Shown here in pieces: positions 6,586-63,757 of a stretch of 64,000 nucleotides of DNA; position 1 is the first letter of the stretch, and each line of letters starts with the position of its first letter. The notes under the pieces were generated by a model that saw only the letters and a program-made list of their open reading frames with translations, made no database searches and was not told the origin of the DNA. Source of the DNA: Bacteroidota bacterium (GTDB lineage Bacteria > Bacteroidota > Bacteroidia > Chitinophagales > LD1); the NCBI GenBank assembly GCA_018267365.1, contig JAFDYQ010000011.1:1-64000 (forward strand), given 5' to 3'. The translations under genes were made by a program, and so were the position numbers.

Positions 6586-6606
6586 ATCCGAAATCCGAAA
6601 TCCGAA
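6586..6606. repeat. Tandem heptamer repeat ATCCGAA x3
   Basis: Three perfect copies of ATCCGAA abut each other just after the end of fldA, followed by a degenerate fourth. This is one of several arrays in the window with an exact 7-bp period. Confidence 0.85.
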
Positions 6607-6611
6607 AATCC

Positions 6612-7145
6612 TTACGCCGGCACCTGCACGCCAAACTCCTGGAGTACCTGTGGTAGCCAGGCATTGAGGCGGCCGTTTGTCAGCTCGTCCTGATTGTCGG
6701 TGTCGAGGCAGAGGCCTACGAACTGGTCGCCGCGCTGTGCCTTTGATACATCGTGCTCGTAGCCCTTCACTGAGGTGAAGCCGCAGAGGGTGCCGTGGCC
6801 TTTCTCTACGATCTCTGCAAATACGCCCAGCGCATCGCAGAAATATGCTGCATAGCCATACTGGTCACCGAGGCCAAAGAAGGCCACCTTCTTGCCCGTG
6901 AAATCTATCTGCTCCATCTCGGGGATAAACTCCTCCCAGTCGCCCTGCAGCTCTCCGTCATACCAGGTAGGCATGCCGATGATGAGCAGGTCATATTTGG
7001 CCATGTCTTCTTTCTTCTTTTTGTAGATCTCATACATATCTACAGAGTCCGGGCCGAGCATGGCCTCCAGTTTCTTCTTTATCTCCTTGCTTATGGTTTC
7101 CGTGTTGCCTGTATCTGTACCATAAAACAGTCCTATCTTGGTCAT
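6612..7145 (-). CDS. fldA: Flavodoxin, long-chain type
   Basis: A 177-residue FMN-binding electron carrier. The phosphate-binding loop GTDTGNTE is at residues 9-16. The tryptophan/tyrosine isoalloxazine loops are present as MPTWYDGELQGDW (near 57-69) and FFGLGDQYGYAAYF (near 89-102). The 20-residue insertion that defines long-chain flavodoxins is present. It supplies low-potential electrons in place of ferredoxin. It starts 14 bp after the S41 protease stop on the same strand, so read-through from that gene is possible. Confidence 0.95.
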   Translation of the reverse strand: MTKIGLFYGTDTGNTETISKEIKKKLEAMLGPDSVDMYEIYKKKKEDMAKYDLLIIGMPTWYDGELQGDWEEFIPEMEQIDFTGKKVAFFGLGDQYGYAAYFCDALGVFAEIVEKGHGTLCGFTSVKGYEHDVSKAQRGDQFVGLCLDTDNQDELTNGRLNAWLPQVLQEFGVQVPA

Positions 7146-13370: not shown

Positions 13371-13401
13371 CCTCAAAGACGCAAAGAACGCAAAGAGAAT
13401 T
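13371..13401. repeat. Short ACGCAAAGA-type intergenic repeat
   Basis: CCTCAAAGACGCAAAGAACG and the bases that follow repeat an ACGCAAAGA-like unit of about 9 bp. A similar run occurs near 54433-54463. These are common dispersed A/C-rich repeats in Bacteroidota intergenic DNA. The function is unknown. Confidence 0.55.
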
Positions 13402-24263: not shown

Positions 24264-24351
24264 ACATCCTGCCTCACGGCAGGCAGGCTCCCTAAAGGGA
24301 GACTTTGACAGCCGGGAGGCTACTTGTATTTTGTATTAAAGCTTCTTTTAG
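24264..24351 (+). repeat. 88-bp direct repeat, left copy
   Basis: It begins ACATCCTGCC-TCAC-GGCAGG, itself a small hairpin, then the palindrome CTCCCTAAAGGGAG, and ends CTTCTTTTAG. It matches 24981-25068 at 86 of 88 positions. Confidence 0.88.
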
Positions 24352-24479
24352 GGTAGAGGTGGAATCAATTGATCCAATAGCCTGCCCTCTAAATCTCCCT
24401 AAAGGGAGACTTTAACAGACGGGAGGCTACTTGTATTAAAGCTTCTTTAGGGTAGAGGTGGAATCAATTGGTCCAACAG

Positions 24480-24573
24480 CTGCCCTCTAAATTTCCCTAA
24501 TGGGAGACTTTAACAGCCGGGAGGCTACTTGTATTTTGTATTAAGCCTCCCTTTAGGGAGGTTTGGAGGGTAG
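24480..24573. repeat. 94-bp MITE-like palindromic unit
   Basis: The left arm (24480-24508, containing CCCTCTAAATTTCCCTAATG) and the right arm (24545-24573, containing CCTCCCTTTAGGGAGG and TTTGGAGGG) are imperfect inverted repeats of about 29 bp. The arm length and layout match the terminal repeats of the leuS insertion. There is no coding content. Confidence 0.65.
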
Positions 24574-27401: not shown

Positions 27402-27475
27402 ATGGATAGATGGCTGCGCCACCTTGCAGTCCTGCGCCGCATGTGCTAATTTCATACGAAACCAATCTCTCTGTC

Positions 27476-28168
27476 GTGAAAAAACTGTACTACGCTCTCG
27501 TCTTTATGTTATTGGCTACTGCCGGCCACGCGCAGGACAAAGGCGCTGTGACTATCATCAAAAAATCAGAACAACTGACACACGCCACCGGCTGGAAACA
27601 AAACCGCAGCACGGATAAACTCATAGCCAATGACAACGTGATATGCGATAAGGAGATACAACGCACAGACAGCGCCCTGATAGGCGGCACACCGCAAAAC
27701 TTCGGCTGGCTGCAGACTGCCTCTCTGCGCTATGGCGCGCGCAAATACTACATGGTATATTACTTCCGGCAGGATGGCCACTTCCTGCATCCCGAGACAA
27801 AGGTAGGATGGATATCGCATACGGCTACACGCTTTCTGGTCGTTGATTCATCGGAGTATGTGGCCTTTCGCAGAGAGGTACTGGCCAAACGTGGCGGCGC
27901 CCACACACTGCGCAGCCGCGTGACCGGCGAGATACTCGATGCCTATGATGAGCCAGCCCTGCTGAAGGCTGTAGCCGCAGCCTTTGAGAGCGTAGAGAAA
28001 AAGACAGCACTGGTATATTACTGTTTCAATGCACGCACACAGGTCTTTGAGGGCCGGGATATAGCCCGCCTGCGTATGCCGGAGACCTGCATCACCAGCG
28101 ATAAACTAGGCACTGAGTTTTTTGAAACTGACTATGAGAGTTTCAGGAAGCTACTGGTGGAGCCGTAG
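27476..28168 (+). CDS. Exported protein of unknown function
   Basis: A 230-residue protein with a signal peptide when started at GTG 27476 (VKKLYYALVFMLLATAGHAQ). The upstream in-frame ATG at 27410 would add a Pro/Cys-rich, non-signal leader. After the signal the protein is mixed alpha/beta, with several Tyr-rich strands (KYYMVYYFRQDG, TALVYYCFNARTQ) and no recognised domain. It is probably periplasmic. It stands alone between the aro operon and a heptamer repeat. Confidence 0.65.
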   Translation: MKKLYYALVFMLLATAGHAQDKGAVTIIKKSEQLTHATGWKQNRSTDKLIANDNVICDKEIQRTDSALIGGTPQNFGWLQTASLRYGARKYYMVYYFRQDGHFLHPETKVGWISHTATRFLVVDSSEYVAFRREVLAKRGGAHTLRSRVTGEILDAYDEPALLKAVAAAFESVEKKTALVYYCFNARTQVFEGRDIARLRMPETCITSDKLGTEFFETDYESFRKLLVEP

Positions 28169-28182
28169 TTGTCGCGAACGAT

Positions 28183-28203
28183 GGACGACGGACGACGGAC
28201 GAC
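28183..28203. repeat. Tandem heptamer GGACGAC x3
   Basis: Three perfect abutting copies of GGACGAC lie in the short gap between convergent genes. Confidence 0.88.
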
Positions 28204-28228
28204 AGAGCGCTGGCGATAAGTGAAAGGC

Positions 28229-28522: not shown

Positions 28523-28543
28523 GGTCAACGGTCAACGGTGGAC
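28523..28543. repeat. Tandem heptamer GGTCAAC (two perfect, one degenerate)
   Basis: GGTCAAC GGTCAAC GGTGGAC lies in the gap between the NdpA-like gene and its downstream small gene. A related array (GGTCCAC/GGTCGAC) occurs at 53923-53950. Confidence 0.78.
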
Positions 28544-28552
28544 AGCGAAGCG

Positions 28553-35458: not shown

Positions 35459-38400
35459 TTATCTGGTCACCACGAGTTTCTTGGTGGTAAAGCTATTGCC
35501 TGCATAGACAGATACAGAGTAGGTGCCCTGTGCCAGGCCCGATACATCAAAGGTAGAGATATTGTATCCCTCTGCCAGCTGCCATGGCTGTGTGAGCACT
35601 ACACGGCCTACCATGTCTGTGATGGTCACAGTAGCCTTCTGGCCTGTGGTGGTCAGGATGCCGAGCTGCACCGCGTTCACGGCAGGGTTAGGGATCATGT
35701 CTTCAAAGCTGAAGCCCTTCTCTCCGATCAGTGATGCGGATACGATCTCAGAGTATACAAACTGTCCGTCAAAGTCTACCTGCCTGAGGCGGTAGTAGTA
35801 GACAGCGCCCGGCTGTACGGTACGGTCAGAGTAGGAGTAGGAGAGCTGTGTATTGCTATTGCCGTGTCCATCTACCCATCCTATCTGGGTGAACTCCCTG
35901 CCATCAGTGCTGCGCTCTATGGCAAAGCCCTTGTTATTGATCTCAGAGGCAGTAGCCCAGTCCAGGTCTATGTACTTATTATCTATGGCATCAGCCGTGA
36001 GGTAGAGCAGCGTGACAGGCAGCGGTGTATTATTATTATTCTGACCATGGATGTAGAAGCCTGACCAGCTCGATACATTCATACATACTTCCCACACGTT
36101 ATTAAAGGTCACGCCATTCACGGTAGGGTTGTGCGTTTTGGAGGTAGGCGTGAGCACGATGCGGGATGTATTGCTGGCAGGTGTCTCAGCACCGCCGTGA
36201 AACTTCGTCACTACCGCATTGCTGAGGTTAGTGGCAAAGGTAGGGTAGTATGCCGGCGCACTGTGGTTGTCATTATTATTGGATGCTGTATTGAGCGCCG
36301 CTACCTCGGCATCGCTCATGTAGAGGCATACAGATGCATTGCCCGATGTATTGGTCGGAGAGATCTTGAAGTGGCGCTGCAGGTAGCTCTGAGGGCTGGT
36401 AGGGCCAAACTGCTGTACAGAGCCATCTACCGTCACCTCCACATTGGTATTGCCCAGTGTATTGCCCCCGTCGGTGATCTTCACCATCAGGTTGCCGCTA
36501 TTGTCATAGAATACCTTGGTAGCACCGGTGGTCACGGTACAGGCATAGGTATCGCCCGATGTCAGTACCGGCGTAGAATAAGATACCGGGCTGCCGGTGA
36601 TAGACGCCGCAGCACAGCCGCTGGCATCCGTCACGCCGGTGAGTGAGCAGGAGCTATTGGCACCCGCAGGTATCACAAACGGTGAGGTCTGATTGGTATA
36701 TGCTGTACCGCAGACAGTGAAGTTGTATGGCGATGTGCCGCCTGTGACGGTCACCGTAGCGGTATGGCCGCCGTTGCACGGATCTATCACATCAGCTATA
36801 GAGGCCGACGAAGGGCCATTAGTAACATTGACAGTAGTCGAGACCCCACCTGCCCCGTTGCATGGCGAAGGACCTGTGACAGACACCCAGTAGGAGGTGG
36901 TAGATGCCGGAGTGACAGCGTAAGATGCAGAGGTAGCCCCACCTATAGGGTTCGTACCTACTACGGTGCCTGTACCCCACTGATAGTTTGCACCCGTGCC
37001 CAGCGAGCCTCCGGTGGCAGTCAGTGTGGTACCATTGCCACTGCACAGATTGGTCGTACCGCTGATACCTGTAGGAGCGGTAGATGGTGTATTGACATTG
37101 ACCGTAGTGGTCACACCGCCTGCACCATTGCATGGCGACGGGCCCGATACCGATACCCAGTAGGTAGTAGTAGATGCAGGTGTGACCGCATAAGATGCCG
37201 ATGTAGCACCGGCGATAGGGTTCGTACCTATCACAGATCCTGTACCCCACTGATAGCTGGCCCCTGTGCCGAGAGAGGCACCTGTGGCTGTGAGCGTGAC
37301 ACCACTGCCCTGGCAGATCGTACCGCCGCCGCCACTGATACCCGTCACAGCGCTGGATGGTGTATTGACATTGATAGTAGTGGTCACACCGCCCGCACCA
37401 TTGCATGGAGACGGCCCGGTCACAGATACCCAGTAGGTAGTAGTAGAGGAAGGTGTGACCGCATAAGATACCGATGTAGCGCCCGCGATAGGGTTCGTAC
37501 CTATCACAGAGCCCGTACCCCACTGATAGCTGGCCCCTGTGCCGAGAGAGCCGCCTGTAGCTGTGAGCGTGACACCGCTGCCCTGGCAGACCGTACCACC
37601 ACCACCGCTGATACCTGTCGGTGCGGTAGATGGCGTATTGACATTGACCGTGGTGGTCACACCGCCTGCGCCATTGCATGGAGACGGGCCGGTCACAGAT
37701 ACCCAGTAGGTAGTAGTAGAGGATGGCGTGACCGCATAAGATGCTGCTGTAGCGCCACCGATAGGGTTAGTACCTATCACAGAGCCCGTACCCCACTGAT
37801 AGGTGGCCCCTGTGCCTAGTGAGGCACCTGTAGCTGTGAGCGTCACACCGCTACCCTGGCAGACCGTACCGCCGCCGCCACTGATGCCTGTCACGGCGCT
37901 CGATGGTGTATTGACATTGACGGTGGTAGTAGCCGATCCTACCGGATTGCTGCATGGAGCAGTAGTGCCGGTCACAGATACCCAGTAGCTGGTAGTAGAG
38001 GATGGTGTCACACTGGCAGTAGTAGAGGTAGATGTCTGGAAGACATTGGTACCTACGCTGCCCGTACCCCACTGGTAGCTGGCACCTGTACCCAGGGCAC
38101 CGCCACTGGCAGTGAGTGTCACAGATGAGCCCTGGCAGATCGTGCCGCCGCCGCCGCTGATAGAGGTAGGAGCAGTAGATGGATTATTGACTGTGATGGT
38201 CTTGGTCGCGCTGCCGGATGGATTGCTGCACGGAGATGAACTGCCTGTGACCGACACCCAATAGGTAGTAGTGGATGATGGAGTCACGTTTGCAGTAGTA
38301 GAGGTAGATGTCTGGAATACATTGGTACCCACCGTACCGGTACCCCACTGATAGCTGGCACCGCTGCCCAGAGCGCCGCCGGTCTCGGTCAGGGTGATGC

Positions 38401-39430
38401 CTGTACCCTGGCATACAGGCGTAGTACCTGATATGCCGGTAGGAGCTGTAGATGGCGTATTGACAGTGACGGTAGTAGACACGCAGGCGGTATTGGTACT
38501 GCACGGCGATGGGTCTTCATATCGCACATAGTATGTAGTAGTAGAGGTAGGAGAGACAGAGAGGCTATTGCCCGAGCCCACCAGTGTACCACCGCAGGAT
38601 CCGGTGTACCACCGCGCAGTAGCGCCGGTACCCAGGGAGCCGCCGCTATAGGTCAGCGTGCTGGAGCCGCCGCTGCAGATAGTGGCAGGAGAGGCCGCTG
38701 CGCTGGTAGGCGCCGTAGATTTAGAGTTGACTGTAAATGTCACATCAGAACTACAAACTCCGAGTGAGGCACGCACGGTGACAGTACCCGCTGTAGTAGC
38801 TGTGAGGGTAGTGCCTGATATACTGGCGGTACCACCCACTACAGACCAGGTAGGCACGCCTGACCCCGACGATACGGTATAGGTCAGGGCCTTGGTGGCG
38901 CCTACGCAGACGGTAGTATTGCTCGTAGTATTGGTCACAGATGATACCTGCTTGTACTTTAGCAGGGCACTGGTGCTCTCCCAGACACTACCGCAGTTAT
39001 AGCGCTCTACGAGTACATTCACCGTACCGGTAAAAGTGGCCGTCCAGTCTACAGACGCATTGGTGCCGGTACAATCAGGACCGTTGTCATCATCATAAAA
39101 TACGGAGGTAGCAGTGTTACTGCTATTGTAACCGGTGATCTGGCTGTCCCAGCTCCCGTCGCAGGTAGAGACTACGTATTCCACACCGTTTATACAGTTG
39201 AAGGTACCATATCCCGTAGATGCTACGCTCAGGTTTGAGCCAAATGTATTGCAAGAAGTAGGTGTAGGTATGGTGCCGAAACTATGGCTACCGTTCCAGG
39301 TACACTGCGCATCGGCGGTGAGCACCAGTCCCATCAGTACCACCAGGGCCAGAAGGAATTTACTACTGCGATAGCTGACGGCGAGGGAGTGAGTCAGATG
39401 GCTACAGGCTTGTGTAAAAGACTTTTTCAT
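35459..39430 (-). CDS. T9SS type A secreted protein with seven Ig-like repeats
   Basis: A 1323-residue exported protein with a long signal region (about 1-42, ending LTADAQ). The central part has seven tandem modules of about 85-95 residues, typified by GISGGGGTVCQGSGVTLTAT and YWVSVTGPSPCNGAGG. Several are almost identical at DNA level, so they look recently duplicated or homogenised by recombination. A carbohydrate-binding or adhesin-like segment follows, then a beta-rich module (ERSTDGREFTQIGWVDG, YYYRLRQVDFDGQ) and a type A T9SS sorting domain (MIPNPAVNAVQL, GLAQGTYSVSV, TKKLVVTR). It is a surface-associated protein of unknown ligand. Confidence 0.92.
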   Translation of the reverse strand: MKKSFTQACSHLTHSLAVSYRSSKFLLALVVLMGLVLTADAQCTWNGSHSFGTIPTPTSCNTFGSNLSVASTGYGTFNCINGVEYVVSTCDGSWDSQITGYNSSNTATSVFYDDDNGPDCTGTNASVDWTATFTGTVNVLVERYNCGSVWESTSALLKYKQVSSVTNTTSNTTVCVGATKALTYTVSSGSGVPTWSVVGGTASISGTTLTATTAGTVTVRASLGVCSSDVTFTVNSKSTAPTSAAASPATICSGGSSTLTYSGGSLGTGATARWYTGSCGGTLVGSGNSLSVSPTSTTTYYVRYEDPSPCSTNTACVSTTVTVNTPSTAPTGISGTTPVCQGTGITLTETGGALGSGASYQWGTGTVGTNVFQTSTSTTANVTPSSTTTYWVSVTGSSSPCSNPSGSATKTITVNNPSTAPTSISGGGGTICQGSSVTLTASGGALGTGASYQWGTGSVGTNVFQTSTSTTASVTPSSTTSYWVSVTGTTAPCSNPVGSATTTVNVNTPSSAVTGISGGGGTVCQGSGVTLTATGASLGTGATYQWGTGSVIGTNPIGGATAASYAVTPSSTTTYWVSVTGPSPCNGAGGVTTTVNVNTPSTAPTGISGGGGTVCQGSGVTLTATGGSLGTGASYQWGTGSVIGTNPIAGATSVSYAVTPSSTTTYWVSVTGPSPCNGAGGVTTTINVNTPSSAVTGISGGGGTICQGSGVTLTATGASLGTGASYQWGTGSVIGTNPIAGATSASYAVTPASTTTYWVSVSGPSPCNGAGGVTTTVNVNTPSTAPTGISGTTNLCSGNGTTLTATGGSLGTGANYQWGTGTVVGTNPIGGATSASYAVTPASTTSYWVSVTGPSPCNGAGGVSTTVNVTNGPSSASIADVIDPCNGGHTATVTVTGGTSPYNFTVCGTAYTNQTSPFVIPAGANSSCSLTGVTDASGCAAASITGSPVSYSTPVLTSGDTYACTVTTGATKVFYDNSGNLMVKITDGGNTLGNTNVEVTVDGSVQQFGPTSPQSYLQRHFKISPTNTSGNASVCLYMSDAEVAALNTASNNNDNHSAPAYYPTFATNLSNAVVTKFHGGAETPASNTSRIVLTPTSKTHNPTVNGVTFNNVWEVCMNVSSWSGFYIHGQNNNNTPLPVTLLYLTADAIDNKYIDLDWATASEINNKGFAIERSTDGREFTQIGWVDGHGNSNTQLSYSYSDRTVQPGAVYYYRLRQVDFDGQFVYSEIVSASLIGEKGFSFEDMIPNPAVNAVQLGILTTTGQKATVTITDMVGRVVLTQPWQLAEGYNISTFDVSGLAQGTYSVSVYAGNSFTTKKLVVTR

Positions 39431-42769: not shown

Positions 42770-43082
42770 GGGCGAAGGGACGAGTGGCGGAGGACGGAGG
42801 ACGAGGAATATACCCCTGTCTGTATTCATTTTTGCCAGTGGTCCCTTACTATGGCAGGTGTCTCCGCTGCCTACCAGGCTCATGGCTTTTTGACGCTGTG
42901 GTGACCGATCCGGGTGCCAAGTTTTTCCGATGAGGAGCATAGTAGCTCAGACCTCAGTGTACATTCCTTATCCACCAAGTTTTCCGACTGAGAGGCTATT
43001 TCTCTATCAGCCTTTTACATAGCATAAAAAAAGCCCCGTACCAGGTATGGTACAGGGCTCCGGTTTAGGATTGGGTTGGTTA
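42770..43082. other. Intergenic region with GGAGGAC heptamers
   Basis: About 310 bp with no gene. Two abutting heptamers GGAGGAC lie at 42789-42802, in a G-rich stretch just after the DinB stop. A pair of similar TTTTCCGA-type short motifs occurs near 42925 and 42980. The T9SS gene's terminator ends the region. Confidence 0.55.
43026..43058 (-). terminator. Terminator of the 488-residue T9SS gene
   Basis: On the minus strand GCCCTGTACC and GGTACGGGGC pair in a 10-bp stem, with a T run after it. It is 25 bp downstream of the stop. Confidence 0.85.
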
Positions 43083-44549: not shown

Positions 44550-44731
44550 GCGTATAGTTTGGTTGTTTTAGTAAAGCTATAAATGTAGTGAAATATCAGT
44601 GGCGGTTGGTATAAACTATCCACAAGATGGATGAACGGTCGGGTTTTCTCATTGTGCACTCATGCTGTAGTACGGTTTGCATTTTCCTAACGTTGCTCAG
44701 ATTTTTCATATTTGCACGCATATCTATCTCT

Positions 44732-45541
44732 ATGAGGCATATACCCCTGCTGATCATAGCGGCTATCGTACTACTGGCCTCTGCATGCGGCCAGCAGGGC
44801 CGCGGGCACCGGCACCTGACTACTGCAGACTCTCTGCGCCGCGCACGCGCTATAGCCGAGGAGTCGCACCTGACTGATATGGAGCAGGTACATGAGAGCC
44901 TGACCGGTCCGGAGCCTGCCACAGGCAGCGGTGTGGTGGCACCCGGGGGCGCGGCACAGGTACCACAGCCCGGTGACTCCATAGCCCAGGCTGTGCGTGC
45001 GCATGACCGCTGGCACAAAAGGCTGGAGCAGGCCCTGGCTGACTCTGCCACCGCGCTCGGTGCGCTGATCACCCGGGTGCTGGTGCAGGACTCTATACAT
45101 CGCTATACTACGGCCACCTATACCGGAGACGGCCACCTGCTCACCTTTCACTCAGAGCAGACGCCCGATGAGCATGAGCGGGCGGAGTATGATCTGTGCT
45201 TTGATCGCGGGCATCTGGTACACGTGCATGAGCGCCATCTATACGCGGGCGATACAGAAGGTGATGACCAGGCGGCAGATACCTATACGGATGATACGTA
45301 CTATCTCGCCCATGGGCGCGTGTACTATCACTACCGCAAGGCAGGGGAGGCGGTACATCATATGGATCGTATAGAGTACATACAGCAGCACCACTCTGCG
45401 CTACAGGGGGATATAGCAGGCCATCTCAGCCGCGTGTATGATAACTTTGTGACGGAGTACGATCGGCTGACACAGCAGCCTATGGAGGTGATGGTCTATA
45501 CCGCCGTACCGCGCGAGGTGGCGCATGTGGATGGACAGTAG
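44732..45541 (+). CDS. Predicted lipoprotein of unknown function
   Basis: A 269-residue lipoprotein. The start at 44732 gives the lipobox LLASAC with Cys19; an in-frame start at 44627 would add a 35-residue leader without reason. After a flexible Gly/Pro/Gln-rich linker (to about 95) comes a mixed alpha/beta region with many His and Tyr residues (DTYYLAHGRVYYHYRKAGEAVHHMDRIEY). No domain recognised. A CATATTTG sequence near 44707-44714 could be the -7 element. Downstream lies the large heptamer array. Confidence 0.68.
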   Translation: MRHIPLLIIAAIVLLASACGQQGRGHRHLTTADSLRRARAIAEESHLTDMEQVHESLTGPEPATGSGVVAPGGAAQVPQPGDSIAQAVRAHDRWHKRLEQALADSATALGALITRVLVQDSIHRYTTATYTGDGHLLTFHSEQTPDEHERAEYDLCFDRGHLVHVHERHLYAGDTEGDDQAADTYTDDTYYLAHGRVYYHYRKAGEAVHHMDRIEYIQQHHSALQGDIAGHLSRVYDNFVTEYDRLTQQPMEVMVYTAVPREVAHVDGQ

Positions 45542-45556: not shown

Positions 45557-45696
45557 CGAGAGCCTAGAGGCAAGAACCAAGAACCAAGAGACAAGAGGCG
45601 AGAGGCAAGAATCAAGAGTCAAGAACCAAGAATCAAGAATCAAGAGGCGAGAGTCAAGAGGCAAGAATAAAGAGACAAGAATCAAGAGGCAAGAAT
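45557..45696. repeat. Long tandem heptamer array, CAAGANN x 20
   Basis: Twenty consecutive 7-bp units in perfect register (140 bp) between a lipoprotein gene and the aquaporin gene. Most units are CAAGAAC, CAAGAAT or CAAGAGG, with variants such as CGAGAGG and CAAGAGA. No insertion or deletion breaks the 7-bp phase. The same family forms the array at 63612-63695. On the opposite strand it reads as a low-complexity Leu/Ser frame that is not a gene. Confidence 0.92.
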
Positions 45697-45755
45697 CCAA
45701 CGGTAAGTGGCGGGGAATCCGCAACGAAATTTTACCTTTAGGCAAAACCCAACAG

Positions 45756-53848: not shown

Positions 53849-53884
53849 GAGATAGTATTAAGTATTTAGACAAATGCGTATGCG

Positions 53885-53950
53885 GTAGTGAGTAGTGTAT
53901 ATTGAGTAGTGAGATAATGCCTGGTCCACTGTCTACGGTCGACAGTCCAC
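53885..53950. repeat. Heptamer arrays GTAGTGA and GGTCCAC/GGTCGAC
   Basis: At 53885-53912, GTAGTGA GTAGTGT ATATTGA GTAGTGA runs in 7-bp phase. At 53923-53950, GGTCCAC TGTCTAC GGTCGAC AGTCCAC runs in 7-bp phase. The second array belongs to the same family as the one at 28523-28543. Confidence 0.75.
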
Positions 53951-53995
53951 GAAACGAGGACTAGTTGCTGCGTCCCGTTGACAGCTGATGATGAA

Positions 53996-54361: not shown

Positions 54362-54714
54362 GGGTGTTTTGGTTTAGTGCAGGTACAAGATAGGGAAATA
54401 TCCAGACGTGAGATGTGATACATGGAACAATGACGAGGAACCGCAAAGAACGCAGAGAACGCAAAGGGGATTTTTAAATAAATCATAATTAGCGCGTCAT
54501 TCCCAGCCATTGCTGGTCGCCTGACCTGCAACAAACTCCTGGCGCGGATATGCGAATCTCATTTGCAGGCGTGAGGGACCCTATCAGCAAAAGTGGCGCC
54601 CTTATGTCGCGTCGTTGGTCAGCGGCCAACGACGGCGGGGGAGACGTGAGCATGCTTATCCAGCCTGAAACGGGTGTTTCAGATCACAAGCGGTCCTTTA
54701 CTGATCTACGAAAA
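54362..54714. other. Intergenic region with repeats and a hairpin
   Basis: About 350 bp. It has an ACGCAAAGA-type short repeat near 54433-54463 and a perfect 9-bp stem, CGTCGTTGG (54610-54618) with CCAACGACG (54626-54634). The hairpin lies in a GC-rich patch. No protein gene is supported. Confidence 0.55.
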
Positions 54715-63485: not shown

Positions 63486-63611
63486 GATTTCTTTATTTGA
63501 TATGAGGTAACGATATATTTCTGCAACGTATAATTCCCAAATATCGTACCATCTCAGGCTACGCAGCCTGTGGTTTTTTGACCCCACAAAAGGGCCCGGG
63601 GAGTAGAGAAA

Positions 63612-63695
63612 CAAGAAACAAGAAACAAGAAACAAGAACCAAGAACCAAGAACCAAGAATCAAGAGGCAAGAATCAAGAGGCAAGAATCAAGACA
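63612..63695. repeat. Tandem heptamer array CAAGANN x 12
   Basis: Twelve 7-bp units in perfect phase (CAAGAAA x3, CAAGAAC x3, then CAAGAAT alternating with CAAGAGG). Same family as the array at 45557-45696. Confidence 0.92.
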
Positions 63696-63721
63696 AAAGC
63701 CACGTGGGGAAATGGCTGTAG

Positions 63722-63755
63722 TCTTGATTCCTGGTTCTTGATTCTTAATTCTGAA
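63722..63755. repeat. Inverted CAAGAAN-family array
   Basis: Reads as TTCTTGA-type 7-bp units (the reverse complement of the CAAGAAN family) in phase, so the two arrays at 63612-63695 and here could pair as a long imperfect hairpin across 26 bp. Confidence 0.7.
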
Positions 63756-63757
63756 GG

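Follow-up and report, generated by a model that had tools for sequence, protein, structure and literature searches.

Intergenic DNA in the source bacterium and its relatives is rich in seven-base tandem repeats, and the arrays combine a mostly fixed core of about five bases with two free columns. The examples in the 64,000-nucleotide stretch analysed here (the window) belong to a genuine genome-wide feature of a known class, heptanucleotide simple sequence repeats (LSSRs), in which sequence counts as well as unit length. Our preferred reading, held with evenly balanced confidence, is that these are heptanucleotide repeats in a form most evident in Bacteroidota, resized over time, whose core would be kept by a sequence-dependent step.

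Heptamer arrays in the window

Every array named by the first-pass annotation, which had described abutting 7-mers between genes, lies at the position it gave. An ATCCGAA array (6586–6607, 3.1 perfect copies) ends 4 bp off the called end of a flavodoxin ORF (6612–7145, minus strand). Two borders of a single intergenic region are occupied by GGACGAC (28178–28206, plus strand; 3.7–4 copies, GACNACN family), which begins 9 bp past the stop of the ORF at 27410–28168 and points away from it, and by three GGTCAAC units of the GTCNACN family beside an NA37-like gene (28523–28544; 2.4 perfect copies, the third degenerate). GGAGGAC, or RGGRCGA-type, heptads (about 42775–42807; reverse complement CGYCCYN) are present in two to three copies, with one indel by TRF, 6 bp past a DinB_2 ORF, and 19 CAAGARN units (45559–45697, plus strand) start 17 bp past the stop of the ORF at 44627–45541. 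Near a PPK2 gene start, two AGTATTN units and the tail AGACAAATGC (53854–53877) form the reverse complement of the CTNANTA border element; there follow four degenerate GTAGTGA units (53885–53913, 72% matches) with the related tail AGATAATGC, and four degenerate GTCNACN units (53922–53951; GGTCCAC, TGTCTAC, GGTCGAC, AGTCCAC). Twelve CAAGARN units (63607–63693, plus strand) form the left arm of an inverted pair whose right arm, four to five NYTCTTG units (63722–63755, minus strand), repeats most of the left arm's free bases.

Several of the short arrays, each taken alone, would be weak evidence, and the informative part of CAAGANN is its two variable columns. Known families account for most of the flanking ORFs tested (flavodoxin, NA37, DinB_2, MIP, PPK2, DUF1304 and the GldM C-terminus); those at 27410–28168 and 44627–45541 have no Pfam match. 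A known structured RNA was rejected as the identity of the arrays, the window having no Rfam match at gathering scores.

Other repeats were noticed alongside the heptamers. A 98-bp tandem repeat (24288–24535, 2.4 copies) contains CTCCCTAAAGGGAG palindromes, and its ACTTTAACAGCC words recur at about eight intergenic sites in a 1.2-Mb sample of the genome. Tandem repeats of 273–276 bp (36825–38380) lie within a 1,323-residue ORF (35459–39430, minus strand), like those of large repetitive surface proteins. A dispersed palindrome, AGGGACAGGTCGCGACCTGTCCCTAC, and its close variants occupy about nine intergenic sites in 1.2 Mb (L131:9796–9850, L048 near 6030 and others). In the related genome G004, about 1.1 kb (L118:12934–14113) that is missing from the matching contig of genome G001 carries palindromic words of the GCGATTATATCGC type and a minus-strand ORF that by inspection resembles a REP-associated Y1 transposase.

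Period, families and free columns

The first-pass annotation had predicted that intergenic self-similarity at lag 7 would exceed that at neighbouring lags, and it does, both in the window and in 1.2 Mb of the window's genome, sampled as stretches, on which our genome-wide counts are based. Intergenic runs of at least 7 in the window number 10 at lag 7 and 9 at its harmonic, lag 14; the remaining lags between 2 and 13 have 1–4. Exact intergenic runs of at least 10 across the 1.2 Mb number 12 at lag 7 and 0–2 at each remaining lag between 1 and 13; harmonics appear at lags 14, 21 and 28. Tolerant scoring of the same intergenic DNA gives 46 segments at lag 7 versus 3–8 at lags 4, 5, 8, 10, 11 and 13. 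Chance is ruled out by dinucleotide shuffles: 38 intergenic lag-7 segments compare with a mean of 0.2 (range 0–1) in ten shuffles, while lag 8 has 5 versus 0.6 and lags 5, 10 and 11, with one each, stand at shuffle level. Coding periodicity was also rejected, coding DNA being dominated by multiples of 3 and not by 7. Lag 7 leads its neighbours in two other genomes of the genus and in one of another genus of the same family as well (35, 5 and 7 segments); two of the segments listed for G004 are runs of N and were left out of later counts. These are tandem 7-bp units beyond chance, as in heptanucleotide LSSRs.

Across four genomes, 76 intergenic arrays of period 7 fall into 16 families, 11 of them recurrent, where randomised units would be expected to give 40–48 (consensus units were clustered by average linkage, with n for mixed columns; single linkage had merged everything). 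Period 8 contributes 16 arrays in 8 families, period 9 contributes 9 in 6, and periods 10, 11 and 13 have 2–5 arrays. Families turn up repeatedly, at different loci and in further species of the same genus and the same taxonomic family; the main ones are CTNANTA (reverse complement TANTNAG, seen as AGTATTN), CAAGARN, GAATARN, AATCANN, GTCNACN, GACNACN, TGAGANN, CGYCCYN and ATCCGAA. Families of period 8 and 9 are present too (GATTTACN and CGCAAAGNN). Within the window, CGCAAAGNN repeats, with a period of about 9, lie at 13374–13396 and 54439–54479, the second of which has dozens of matches across the genus's genomes.

Period 7 is thus dominant even when counted by family, and something therefore favours 7. 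The first-pass annotation had gone further, proposing a mechanism that measures 7 bp instead of selection for a sequence. Its length component survives; its indifference to sequence does not, because families are few and recurrent, variation lies in two columns, and cores are kept at orthologous sites.

The column patterns are CAAGA|RN, GAATA|RN, CT-N-A-N-TA and G-W-C-N-AC-N. Among 58 longer arrays, 324 of 410 mismatches lie in whichever two columns vary most in the array concerned, against 234 ± 6 if evenly spread. The significance is overstated because mismatches were treated as independent though duplicated units share descent; more telling is that the same columns are free again at other loci and in other species. 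Over 172 units of the CAAGA family, the core bases are C in 155, A in 160, A in 169, G in 165 and A in 171; column 6 is A or G in 168, and all four bases are about equally common in column 7 (41 G, 48 C, 38 A, 45 T). GAATA arrays obey the same column rule. At eight orthologous short arrays, core positions changed in 13 of 162 cases (8%) and free columns in 26 of 60 (43%; Fisher p 9e-9), a count that excludes a single core column that had switched (GTC to GAC, changed in 4 of 4) and is partly ascertained, because family patterns in one genome served to pick out the eight pairs before they were compared by position; one pair (L101 and L149) was matched through common surrounding sequence.

Order within arrays is also structured in the longest array, where neighbouring units have the same RN less often than expected (0.05 versus 0.17 ± 0.05) and units three apart share it more (0.29). 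Reading of a 46-unit CAAGARN array (L049:10967–11293) shows that a unit with G in column 6 never directly follows another such unit, a pattern absent from other arrays. At L082:14080–14160, a period-8 array, CGTCACYN, has six fixed and two variable bases and is followed by CGTCCYT heptads, which extends the core-plus-two rule beyond period 7.

Change between species, breadth and gene borders

Comparison of G001 with G004 (about 96% identity at some compared loci, 85–93% at others) showed that long arrays gain and lose multi-unit blocks between species. A CAAGARN array differs by a 56-bp gap, or eight units, and another long array differs by several blocks and many free bases; copy number thus varies between relatives, as it does for LSSRs. 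Three short arrays, each with three or four units, do not differ between the two genomes. Whole-stretch replacement or switching of family was seen at two or three loci. One of these has AGTATTN and GTCNACN arrays in G001, where G004 has CAAGARN arrays and an inverted partner for them; the replaced stretch begins close to the start codon of one gene and runs almost to the stop of its neighbour. Another carries GTCNACN...GTNGACN in genome G000 and GACNACN...GTNGTCN in G004: both arms changed together, with the same core base altered in four units, in register.

CAAGARN is found in many phyla among the matches listed. Outside Bacteroidota, such arrays mostly have one or two unit types and are mostly perfect single-unit repeats, and at least three RN types within five units occur at 11 of 33 Bacteroidota loci versus 1 of 45 elsewhere (10 of 30 versus 1 of 36 with one locus per genome), in what is a small, pattern-selected sample. 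Of 296 genomes of the phylum, 19 contain GAATARN arrays, and many of these arrays repeat a single unit perfectly. As far as sequence comparison goes, this suggests that slippage may be ordinary everywhere and that Bacteroidota may add a core-keeping step.

The arrays sit between genes, many at gene borders and some with inverted partners. CTNANTA arrays adjoin borders, which were taken from simple ORF calls and are in part approximate, and in 23 of 28 cases they are oriented toward the closer gene, whether the border is a start or a stop; a simple role as promoter or leader is rejected because these arrays point toward both. Polarity is weak for CAAGARN (12 away, 8 toward, several of the counts coming from one array), and stands at 9 away and 3 toward for GAATARN and at 13 toward and 2 away for CGYCCYN. 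All-frame stop codons were rejected as a selected property, since by inspection CAAGARN, ATCCGAA and CCAGTAT read forward without them.

Candidate explanations and known heptamer repeats

Under the preferred reading, arrays would be resized in multiples of 7 by slipped-strand mispairing or unequal exchange, and inverted partners would arise by inverted template switching. The least certain part is the sequence-dependent step that would keep the core. This might be re-annealing for which the core is required while the two free columns may mismatch, or else a factor that binds nucleic acid and recognises the core; a re-annealing requirement gives no simple account of GTCNACN and CTNANTA, because these lack a contiguous five-base core. 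The polymerase-contact proposal of Mrazek et al. (2007) may explain why the step is 7. The period-7 excess, limited families, two-column variation and orthologous core conservation support this reading, as do block resizing, the RN spacing of the longest array, family switching and the mixed-RN excess in Bacteroidota. Against it stand the four-unit CTNANTA arrays, which keep their core with little visible resizing and which selection fits better than replicative turnover. That core conservation in short, little-resized arrays would follow if the arrays were selected sites at gene borders for a putative single-strand DNA- or RNA-binding protein of about 7-nt pitch, of cold-shock or S1 type, which we regard as a tentative possibility: CTNANTA arrays abut gene borders and favour the nearer gene 23:5, but their polarity holds at start and stop borders alike, so that the transcribed strand differs, and equivalent places in related species carry different families. 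Sequence-blind polymerase slippage with a 7-nt step, the view of the first-pass annotation and of Mrazek et al. (2007), would make any seven bases duplicable in tolerant intergenic DNA. The dominance of period 7 over other lengths agrees with it, and the mostly perfect single-unit CAAGARN-type arrays outside Bacteroidota are what slippage would give; however, the families are few and recurrent, variation keeps to two columns, orthologous cores are conserved and some families show border polarity. The results on families and columns already weigh against it as a complete explanation, and we consider it doubtful.

Two further candidates seem improbable to us, and about equally so. The arrays could be ends or cargo of a small mobile repeat, REP- or MITE-like and moved in trans, for example by Y1 transposases, of which the window's genome has eight Y1_Tnp matches over the cut-off. 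One 18-base CTNANTA element core is present in 21 copies, the tail AGAYNAATRC recurs, and G001 and G004 share a pair of genes between which the entire intergenic stretch was replaced. In the CTNANTA element, units and tail follow one another in a recurring order, but the units vary freely, most inspected borders carry different families at their two ends, and neither target-site duplication nor constant inner sequence was seen, the search for these being unsystematic. Alternatively, stems formed by inverted arrays might act as hairpin terminators that end transcription from both sides. As single-stranded DNA, the inverted pair at 63607 and 63722 is predicted to fold strongly into a long hairpin (z = -6.2 over 63612–63756), and two inverted pairs in related loci moderately so (z about -2.5); yet an inverted partner is not evident for many arrays, and the three further window arrays that were folded (45560, 53920 and 28178) do not exceed shuffles, with z = 0.3 for the long array at 45559. 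Nor do we put much weight on the idea, quite unlikely in our estimate, that a sequence-specific Bacteroidota system, a binding protein or copying enzyme of 7-nt pitch, builds or maintains core-plus-two arrays at gene borders, its cores being interchangeable modules with one function.

The heptamer excess has been known since 2007, and the papers cited here settle on no cause for it. Many families at comparable loci in one genus, together with free positions that record array history, allow a test of whether the length of 7 originates in the copying machinery, in a factor that reads the repeats, or in both.

Known heptamer repeats offer partial parallels. TAACTGA direct repeats in Beggiatoaceae, Cyanobacteria and some Bacteroidetes (MacGregor 2015, PMC4679880) are likewise heptamer arrays between genes, often beside start codons; other heptamers occur in the same Bacteroidetes intergenic regions, orthologous regions can be shorter and repeat-free, and a cold-shock or S1 type binding protein was suggested for them. 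Our border arrays differ in lying at stops as well as starts, and identity was rejected, TAACTGA doublets numbering zero in 2.2 Mb sampled from four genomes. The GGGNATC and GGGGAYT repeats of Xanthomonas and Nostoc (PMC4692102) resemble ours as degenerate intergenic heptamers, some in inverted pairs, that vary in length and sequence between related species. The main families here are without their defining G-runs, and these G-quadruplex heptamers were also rejected as an identity (zero doublets of either in the four genome samples). A literature search covering few subscription journals found no prior description of core-plus-two heptamer families in Bacteroidota; the few families, two free columns, orthologous core conservation, border polarity and concerted change of inverted arms thus appear to be undescribed. 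The idea about length has been published before: according to PMC4679880 and PMC4692102, which cite the work, Mrazek et al. (2007) found heptanucleotides to be the commonest repeat class in most of the genomes they examined and put forward a polymerase contact of 7 nt as the cause. As those citing papers describe the 2007 LSSRs, our arrays share with them a 7-bp tandem unit that is over-represented relative to neighbouring lengths and varies in copy number between relatives, and depart from them in their limited families, two free columns, inverted pairs and, in some families, border polarity.
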